The translations under genes were made by a program, and so were the position numbers. Below the pieces are notes generated by a model. That model was not told where the DNA came from. It saw only the letters and a list, made by a program, of their open reading frames with translations, and searched no databases. 64,000 nucleotides of DNA from Bacilli bacterium (lineage in GTDB: Bacteria; Bacillota_I; Bacilli_A; RFN20; CAG-826): positions 400,162 to 464,161 of the forward strand of contig JAFUHI010000009.1 of assembly GCA_017468925.1 (NCBI GenBank), written 5' to 3'. Shown piece by piece: positions 40,256 through 52,447 of this stretch. Position 1 is the first letter of the stretch. Each line of letters opens with the position of its first letter.

Positions 40256-40258
40256 AAA

Positions 40259-40371
40259 AGTACTTCAGGGTGACGTTAATTACGTCGACTGGCGGTATAG
40301 CCCGCAAGCTCCTAGAGCACGATTAGGTGAAAATCCTAAGCCAACGGTAAAGTCCGGGTGAGAGAAGTAAG
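40259..40371 (+). ncRNA. FMN riboswitch (RFN element)
   Basis: All conserved parts of the RFN element are seen: the AGGGTGA start (40267), GGCGGTATAGCCCGC, ATTAGGTGAAAATCCTAAGCC, and the end GTAAAGTCCGGGTGAGAGAAG (about 40348-40368). Outer helix P1 is TACTTC (40261-40266) with GAAGTA (40364-40369). Bound FMN should favour the downstream hairpin and lower ribU expression. Confidence 0.95.
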
Positions 40372-40374
40372 CGT

Positions 40375-48166: not shown

Positions 48167-48493
48167 TTCCGGCCCAGGTGACTGCTGCCACAAGGTAGAG
48201 GAAAGTCCATGCTCGCACAGCCTGTGATGGTTGTAGTGATTGTGCTAGACGAATAAATAAGTCTAGGTACGCGGGAGCGCGTAACGGCGGATGAATATCT
48301 AATTTAGATAGGAGTCCCTAAGGTGCCACAGAGACGAGCCTAGTGGCGACACTAGGATGAAACGAGGTAAACCCCTCAAGCGAGAAACCCAAAATTGGTA
48401 GGGGAAGAAGACCAATCGAATCGAAGAAAGGCCTTCCTAGTAATCTAGAGATTAATTGTCACCCTCGACAAAACATGGCTTATCGGGCCGGAA
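48167..48493 (+). ncRNA. rnpB: RNase P RNA (Bacillus-type)
   Basis: The core is clear: GAGGAAAGTCCATGCTCGCA near 48200, GCCACAGAGACGAGCC, GAAACGAGGTAAACCCCTC, GAGAAACCCAAAATTGGTAG and ACAAAACATGGCTTA near 48470. Outer helix TTCCGGCCC (48167-48175) pairs with GGGCCGGAA (48485-48493). It is about 327 nt, shorter than the 400-nt Bacillus RNA. It begins at the gpsB stop codon. Confidence 0.96.
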
Positions 48494-50690: not shown

Positions 50691-50719
50691 AGAAGGGCAT
50701 TCAGACGTTTGCCCTTTTT
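50691..50719 (+). terminator. Intrinsic terminator of recA
   Basis: Stem AAGGGCA / TGCCCTT extended by A-T pairs, 10-nt loop, five T. Confidence 0.88.
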
Positions 50720-50762
50720 CTTATAGTCAAGAAAAAACATTTGGTTTAGAATATAGTCGTGT

Positions 50763-50870
50763 CAAAAGGCACGGCCAACCATATAGATCAGGTTTTGGTT
50801 CATTAATTCGGCGAAAGCCGTTCTTATATAACTTAAACATACCGCCATCATTTATGGTGTGTGCCTTTTG
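50763..50870 (+). promoter_or_regulatory. Structured 5' leader of rny (candidate RNA switch)
   Basis: A perfect 10-bp helix joins CAAAAGGCAC (50763-50772) and GTGCCTTTTG (50861-50870). Inside are a hairpin (about 50775-50800, AACCA/TGGTT), CGGC-GAAA-GCCG with a GNRA loop (50809-50820), and CGCCAT/ATGGTG (50843-50859). A TATAGT -10 at 50752-50757 would put the transcript start at the first strand. CCTTT (50864-50868) could instead pair with AAAGG (50878-50882), the rny Shine-Dalgarno. Confidence 0.55.
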
Positions 50871-50893
50871 TGGATATAAAGGAGTTTTAAAAT

Positions 50894-52447
50894 ATGGAAT
50901 GGTACATTGGACTCATAATAGGTGTGGCAGCTGGCGCAATAATAGCTGTTGCCATATTCTTATTGGTCCCGACCTTAAGAAAAAATTCAGCAAAATCCGC
51001 TGCTAATGGAATTATTAGAGATGCTGAAATCAAAGCGGAACACATTACAAAAAATGCTCAATTAGACGCTAAACAGGCGGCTTTTGAAGCGAAACAGCAA
51101 GCCCAAAATGAGATCCGCCAGATGAAAGCGGATGCTCAGATTGAGCAAAAGAAACTAGATGCTAGAGAAGCCTCTATTGATCAAAGAGACGCTGCTCTTT
51201 TGAAAAGAGAAGAAGTTCTCGACCAAAAAAGAGAAGAACTCGAAGGGGGCATCGAAAGCAACAAAAAGAAGTCACAGGAATTATCCGATAAAATTGACTC
51301 CATCATCGCTGAACTAGAAAAAGTCAGCGGCATGTCGGTAAAAGAAGCGCACGATGAAATCATGGCCCGCCTTGAGAATAAGATGAGCGCGGAAATCGCC
51401 GCCTACATCAAAAACGCCGAAGATGAAGCGGAAGCCCAAGCCCAAGAAAAGGCCACTAACCTTCTCGCTTTGGCTTGCGATAAATACGCTCAAGATGTAA
51501 CAACTGAAAGAACTGTGTCTGTCATCGCTCTTCCAAATGACGAACTAAAAGGAAGAATCATCGGTAGAGAAGGAAGAAACATCAAGATTCTTGAACAAAC
51601 TTTAGGTGTTGATCTGGTAATTGATGACACCCCAGAAGTCATAACCGTTTCTTGCTTCGATCCAATCAGAAGAGAAATCGCCAAGCGCACCTTGGAATAT
51701 TTGGTCAAAGATGGACGTATCCAACCTGGAAGAATCGAAGAGGTTTCCGCTAAATTCACTCGCGAGTTAAAACAAGAGACCCAAAAAGCCGGCGAAGAAG
51801 CGGCTTATAAGCTTGGTCTTCCACGAATTAACCGCGAATTGCTGGGATATTTAGGTCGTTTGAAATATAGGACAAGCTTTGGACAGAACGTTTTGCAGCA
51901 TTCTATCGAAGTGGCTCATCTTACTGGAATCATGGCCGCGGAGCTCGGCTTAGACCAAAATCTCGCCAAGCGCGCAGGTTTGCTCCACGACATTGGTAAA
52001 GCAGTCGATTTTGAGCAAGAAGGAAGTCACGTCCAATTGGGATATGACCTCGCTAAAAAATATGGCGAGCCAGAAGTGGTGTTGAACGCTATCGCTTCTC
52101 ACCATGGAGACACCGAATGCAAATTCATAATCTCCCACCTTGTCAAAGCGGGTGATACTTTGTCCGCCGCTAGACCTGGTTCAAGAAGCGAGACGGTAGA
52201 GAATTACATCAAAAGAGTCCAGGAGCTCGAGACGATTGCCAAAGGATTTGATGGTGTTTCCCAAGCCTTTGCCATGCAAGCTGGTAGAGAGATCCGTGTA
52301 ATGGTGGATTACGAAAAAGTGAGTGATGCCGATGCGGTCATTATGGCGACGCAAATCCGTGAAAAGATTGAGAAAGAGATGACATATCCTGGCCAAATCA
52401 AGGTCTTTGTTCTTCGCGAATACAAGGCAATTGAATACGCCAAATAA
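50894..52447 (+). CDS. rny: Ribonuclease Y
   Basis: A 517-residue endoribonuclease with an N-terminal membrane helix (about residues 3-25), a long coiled coil (about 30-200), a KH domain (VSVIALPNDELKGRIIGREGRN, about 208) and an HD domain (LLHDIGK, about 366; SHHGD, about 395). It starts mRNA decay in Bacilli. It has a structured leader and ribosome site AAAGGAG. Next to ymdB and the MiaB-RicA-like fusion, which may modulate it. Confidence 0.97.
   Translation: MEWYIGLIIGVAAGAIIAVAIFLLVPTLRKNSAKSAANGIIRDAEIKAEHITKNAQLDAKQAAFEAKQQAQNEIRQMKADAQIEQKKLDAREASIDQRDAALLKREEVLDQKREELEGGIESNKKKSQELSDKIDSIIAELEKVSGMSVKEAHDEIMARLENKMSAEIAAYIKNAEDEAEAQAQEKATNLLALACDKYAQDVTTERTVSVIALPNDELKGRIIGREGRNIKILEQTLGVDLVIDDTPEVITVSCFDPIRREIAKRTLEYLVKDGRIQPGRIEEVSAKFTRELKQETQKAGEEAAYKLGLPRINRELLGYLGRLKYRTSFGQNVLQHSIEVAHLTGIMAAELGLDQNLAKRAGLLHDIGKAVDFEQEGSHVQLGYDLAKKYGEPEVVLNAIASHHGDTECKFIISHLVKAGDTLSAARPGSRSETVENYIKRVQELETIAKGFDGVSQAFAMQAGREIRVMVDYEKVSDADAVIMATQIREKIEKEMTYPGQIKVFVLREYKAIEYAK

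Follow-up and report, generated by a model that had tools for sequence, protein, structure and literature searches.

A conserved structured RNA dedicated to the RNase Y gene rny in uncultured Bacilli, with two apparently preserved and mutually exclusive pairings

The leader of rny, the gene of RNase Y, from an uncultured member of the Bacilli contains a cis-acting structured RNA that, judged by sequence comparison, is dedicated to this one gene and was previously uncatalogued. It represents a new RNA family in a job for which a few unrelated examples are known. In the genus of the analyzed organism, the element can adopt either a 5′-terminal hairpin (H0) or a long-range helix (P1b). We lean, with some reserve, toward the reading that this leader toggles between H0 and P1b to adjust the amount of RNase Y, with RNase Y activity being the input.

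The DNA analyzed (the window, 64,000 nucleotides) is part of a 1.66-Mb metagenome assembly of uncultured Bacilli. The genes around the leader are arranged in the order cinA, recA, rny, ymdB, and a miaB-like gene, names that we presume from recognition of the sequences. RNase Y is thought to initiate most RNA decay in these gut-type Bacilli. Its gene rny (50894–52447, plus strand, as are the promoter and leader features described below; ATG at 50894) codes for 517 amino acids and occurs as a single copy in the genome of the window. The original prediction had placed an element between a recA terminator and rny, which agrees with a terminator-like hairpin GGGCA...TGCCCTTTTT at approximately 50693–50719, 5′ of the leader. 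It is followed by a predicted rny promoter (50724–50752) consisting of TAGTCA (50724–50729), a 17-nt spacer, and TAGAAT (50747–50752). Because this promoter-like pair ends at 50752, the +1 of the rny transcript is predicted at approximately 50758–50759, which is the first base of H0. Among the 25 leaders of the genus set that were examined, a −10-like hexamer likewise precedes the 5′ hairpin by approximately 4 to 7 nt. Elsewhere, the window carries an FMN riboswitch (40257–40373, plus strand, 76.9 bits, above the Rfam gathering score) and a class B bacterial RNase P RNA (48170–48487, plus strand, 252.5 bits).

According to folding, H0 is the hairpin GUGUC-AAAA-GGCAC (50759–50772), which can be extended by the pair C50758–G50773 and whose arms covary across the genus. 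P1b is formed by the 5′ strand CAAAAGGCAC (50763–50772) and the 3′ strand GUGCCUUUUG (50861–50870; GTGCCTTTTG in the DNA), the latter lying within the switching strand C, UGUGCCUUUUGUG (50860–50872). These are the two strands of the perfect 10-bp helix that had been described as closing a 108-nt element; their complementarity is exact, and the CCTTT noted in the 3′ strand is found at 50864–50868. What had been overlooked is that the 5′ arm of this helix doubles as the loop and 3′ arm of H0. Inside P1b lies P1a, the inner closing helix common to the family, with the strands ACCAUA (50778–50783) and UAUGGU (50853–50858), which is backed by the swap test and by two-sided changes (both given below). 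A conserved junction, AUAUAGAU (50781–50788), is situated between P1a and the inner hairpins and holds a GA dinucleotide in an AU-rich context with hairpins downstream. The P3 hairpin CGGC-GAAA-GCCG (50809–50820), a tetraloop hairpin also recognized earlier, corresponds to helix 4 of the family model, and a conserved AU stretch, UAUAUAA (50825–50831), lies on its 3′ side. The P4 hairpin CGCCAU-CAUUU-AUGGUG (50843–50859), obtained by folding, and P1a are rivals for UAUGGU. The Shine-Dalgarno sequence of rny is AAAGGAG (50878–50884). For strand C, alternative partners are predicted in the window, namely 50893–50906 including the AUG, or the Shine-Dalgarno AAAGG by means of CCUUU.

The 115-nt leader folds with −31.8 kcal/mol (z −3.0), and none of 200 shuffles is equally stable. 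Of 2000 dinucleotide-shuffled leaders, 25 contain a perfect helix of 10 or more base pairs; hence, the 10-bp helix by itself is only moderately unusual. It is the comparative evidence that decides that the leader RNA is real and conserved.

A search of 145 related genomes detected RNase Y in 142, and rny leaders were collected from the upstream DNA. These share a common plan, meaning a TATAAT-like box, a few bases, H0 (often GUACC...GGUAC), and then the P1a domain; following H0, the order is UUACCUAUAGAUUCUC-loop-GAGAA...UUAUCAGG-loop-CCUGUUAUAUAUA, a variable hairpin, UUUUAGGUAA, and the Shine-Dalgarno sequence. P1a reads UUACCUA:UAGGUAA in the relatives, with ACCAUA:UAUGGU as its counterpart in the window. 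A covariance model (R1), built from seven leaders of other genera, matches in 33 of 96 genomes of the family and in 62 of 279 genomes of the order, giving 63 matches, every one of them just upstream of rny and on the same strand. In one genome of the family, G253 (75% complete, 1% contamination), rny is present twice, on separate contigs, and the element precedes both copies (C1:20761–20879, minus strand, and C18:8376–8495, plus strand), reflecting either a duplication or a strain mixture. Across 42 aligned R1 matches, 95.9% of the cells are paired and two-sided changes occur in 20 of the 22 modeled pairs, including all seven of P1a and all five of P3. The covariation score of this alignment amounts to 0.278; shuffling lowers it to 0.130, and sliding the partners leaves no more than 0.064. 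Since the alignment had been fitted to the structure, alignment-free tests were added.

R1 does match relatives in the genus of the window (L200, L206, L218), but it does not score the window leader itself, even with filters off on short upstream loci. Therefore, a second model (R2) was needed, whose seed of nine leaders comprises eight from the genus and one from a neighboring genus, the window being excluded. R2 matches the window leader at 50758–50871 with 37.9 bits and an E-value of 3.2e-6; the next best match has an E-value of 1.5, and the genome of the window shows no other match at E ≤0.1. With R2, the element is found in 11 of the 22 genus relatives searched. A covariance search had been proposed earlier as a check on the leader, and with R2 finding the window from other species and R1 giving its 63 matches, it yields a conserved, covarying rny leader.

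The pairings were analyzed by a swap test, in which the pairing energy of a leader's own strands is compared with that of strands swapped between species, for 22 distinct leaders (21 from the genus, one from a neighboring genus). RNAalifold on a MAFFT alignment of the genus had recovered only H0 and P3, with the 3′ strands misaligned, which is why alignment-free tests were used instead. In the genus set, the arms of H0 give z −6.5 (0 of 50000 swaps), P1b, tested as pairing of the 3′ region with the loop and 3′ arm of H0, gives z −5.0 (0 of 50000), and P1a, taken as the segment after H0 against the 3′ region, gives z −3.9 (6 of 50000); a control segment stays at z +0.8. To account for differences in base composition among the species, dinucleotide-shuffled 3′ regions served as a second reference, resulting in z −13.0 for the whole of P1, −5.3 for P1b, −6.8 for P1a, and −0.1 for the control. 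The H0 5′ arm against the 3′ region, where no pairing is expected, gives z −1.1. In the window, for example, P1b reads CAAAAGGCAC:GUGCCUUUUG; L201 has AAGGUACUCCA:UGGAGUGCCUU, and L212 has UAAAUG:CAUUUA. Hence, the complementarity of the 10-bp helix, which the original prediction had offered for comparative checking, is conserved in the genus by both measures.

As H0 and P1b share the same bases, they cannot coexist, and in the genus, selection appears to keep both. The idea of two exclusive folds thereby stands for the genus in both the swap and the shuffle test; it is, however, H0 that competes with the closing helix. In the rest of the family, P1a is kept (z −5.1 by swap, −8.0 by shuffle), and P1b is absent (z +1.6 and +1.1, respectively). 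Outside the genus, H0 and the inner closing helix P1a persist, coexisting as adjacent helices, and the H0/P1b exchange is thus probably a later addition to an older element; going by its distribution, it is not essential to the family element. Judging by the short Erysipelotrichaceae leaders described below, many of which begin with a small hairpin, the 5′-terminal hairpin may be the most ancient component of the rny leader. Having H0 and P1a without P1b in most of the family would also suit a static leader, in which the fold as such has a role, such as obstructing nucleases, and the pairings are not exchanged in the cell. We regard this as quite improbable, since P1b and H0 use the same bases in the genus and both covary.

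Despite a very different sequence, the GC-rich genus leaders L199, L210, L214, and L216 retain the 5′ hairpin as well as the long-range helix. Here, the pyrimidine-rich strand has moved to the 5′ side, and the 3′ strand resembles GGAGG.

With the known riboswitch classes of Rfam 15, the element has in common a closed domain of several helices ahead of a start codon, and pairings that exclude each other. It could be read as a small-molecule or ion riboswitch with a P1-P2-P3-P4 junction aptamer, H0/P1b as the expression platform, and rny as its sole target. In favor of this, the closed junction retains conserved unpaired AU positions in highly diverged leaders, and the exclusive H0 and P1b resemble an expression platform. 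These exclusive helices are present in the genus, but the platform is missing in the remaining family; moreover, the element stands before rny only and before no other gene in 62 genomes, and its conserved unpaired positions consist almost entirely of A and U, whereas known aptamers have complex cores. Unlike the Rfam 15 classes, it belongs to no family at threshold and is tied to one gene. At the gathering threshold, Rfam 15 returned only the RNase P and FMN matches, located elsewhere, for the whole window; a permissive local scan of the leader gave chance-level matches only, and 20 related leaders gave nothing at gathering level. The earlier statement that the element fits no known riboswitch class thus remains in place. 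Altogether, we rate the riboswitch reading as improbable. In the literature searched, no description of this rny leader was found, bearing in mind that the supplements of the human-microbiome RNA survey PMC8040213 could hold an unnamed earlier motif prediction.

Under the preferred reading, a toggle would act between two states. The rny transcript most likely begins with H0, followed by the P1a-closed domain that holds P2–P4 and the AU-rich conserved junctions, and in the genus of the window P1b extends P1a by taking the loop and 3′ arm of H0. In the H0 state, the 5′ end would be capped and strand C free; in the P1b state, the 5′ end would be unpaired and strand C locked. The toggle could set the translation or the lifetime of the rny mRNA given that strand C, when free, can cover the Shine-Dalgarno sequence or AUG and that the 5′ end is either shielded by H0 or left exposed.

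As to translation, folding of the window predicts that the leader alone adopts the P1b state to 98%; with the first codons added (to 50906), H0 is adopted to 98% and the AUG is only 1% unpaired; on folding to 50920 and 50960, H0 amounts to 71 to 72%. As the energy balance between H0 and P1b shifts and even changes sign with the chosen 3′ end, these values are not to be over-read. In the H0 state, strand C (50860–50872) is paired with 50893–50906 and covers the AUG. The predicted competitor is thus a duplex of 13 bp at the start codon rather than CCUUU:AAAGG alone. Across the 22 leaders, the pairing of strand C with its own initiation region is not significant (z −1.45 by swap, −0.7 and −1.6 by shuffles), and the Shine-Dalgarno helix alone gives z −0.9 in the genus leaders. 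Strong Shine-Dalgarno hairpins are seen in the single leaders L191, L193, and L213. The GC-rich subgroup, made up of L199, L210, and near-identical relatives, has a GGAGG-like 3′ strand that is not anti-Shine-Dalgarno. Hence, of the original proposal that the opened helix hides the Shine-Dalgarno sequence, the folding of the window leaves a possible case, and the 22 leaders lend it no comparative support; it is possible, as modeled, that strand C hides the Shine-Dalgarno sequence or the AUG when free.

Strand C could instead act during transcription, with strand C and a U tract after P1b or P4 forming an intrinsic terminator. The window does contain a weak terminator-like site, the hairpin 50843–50859 followed by TGTGCCTTTT (to 50869). 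However, the U tract is only three to four long in the window and several relatives and is absent in the GC-rich subgroup; attenuation was therefore set aside as very improbable.

A second output, equally natural for the exchange, would be the 5′ end itself, which H0 closes and P1b leaves single-stranded. Taken alone, this leads to an mRNA-stability element, in which H0 blocks 5′-end–dependent decay and P1b removes H0 and exposes the 5′ end, with no direct control of translation. H0 lies at the predicted +1 in the genus leaders, a hairpin is found at the predicted 5′ end of rny leaders across the order and in Erysipelotrichaceae, and the pairing of strand C with the Shine-Dalgarno sequence is unsupported. 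Additionally, 5′ stem-loops stabilize mRNA in Bacillus subtilis, according to the aprE work as cited in PMC10303841, and the aprE stabilizer resembles the window element in placing a hairpin at the very start of an mRNA; it is, however, a simple hairpin and has no competing long-range helix. On the other side, the +1 rests on prediction, the order-wide −10 box was picked partly by the hairpin following it, so that the test of H0 is biased, and the conserved inner junction is left unexplained. We consider a pure stability element unlikely.

Concerning the signal, the preferred reading takes RNase Y activity as the input, meaning autoregulation by binding or cutting of the leader. The strict confinement to rny would favor self-sensing by RNase Y over a metabolite or general ligand. 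The preferred sites of RNase Y are GA dinucleotides within unstructured, AU-rich stretches that are followed by structure (PMC11780869), and in Staphylococcus aureus, a downstream hairpin positions the RNase Y cut (PMC11321564). The conserved AUAGAU junction (AUAUAGAU) loosely resembles such a site as it occurs in B. subtilis; however, about half of the family leaders, 20 of 42 rows, have U in place of the G of its GA. A more far-reaching version, in which the decay endonuclease gauges its own free activity through the leader switch, 5′-end capping and start-codon access are coupled, and a new class of cis-regulatory RNA results, is put forward tentatively and appears rather doubtful.

In B. 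subtilis, RNase Y controls its own gene through cuts in the 164-nt leader and within the first ∼100 nt of the rny ORF (PMC10303841). That leader resembles the one in the window in belonging to the same gene, in being long (164 nt), in serving RNase Y partly for the control of its own mRNA, and in a ribosome site that can sit in secondary structure reaching into the ORF, as predicted here. Its RNase Y cleavages, however, are scattered along the leader and, unlike for the window element, the parts of that paper considered here mention neither a conserved multi-helix domain nor an exchange of helices. The window leader is a structured 5′ UTR of the gene of the main decay endonuclease, and in this it is like the dedicated 5′ UTR of Escherichia coli rne (Schuck et al. 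2009, as cited in PMC10303841); there, however, enzyme and RNA are unrelated to those described here, and RNase E binds a stem-loop of the leader, whereas binding is only supposed in the present case.

A conserved, rny-confined RNA with two apparently preserved folds offers a compact target for the question of whether RNase Y senses itself, and the comparative alignments pinpoint the helices to mutate. The element would also add a family to Rfam.

Beyond the family, other families of the order (L135, L159, L168, and others) show an apparent 5′ hairpin and long-range closure in unrelated sequence. The order-wide comparison of the 5′ end with the 3′ region gives z −2.6 to −5.4, values from swaps without base-composition control and from a hairpin-biased promoter choice that are not relied on. 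The rny leaders of Erysipelotrichaceae (L079–L110) are short, and many of them carry a small hairpin, such as GAGAGAAATCTC, right after the TATAAT box.
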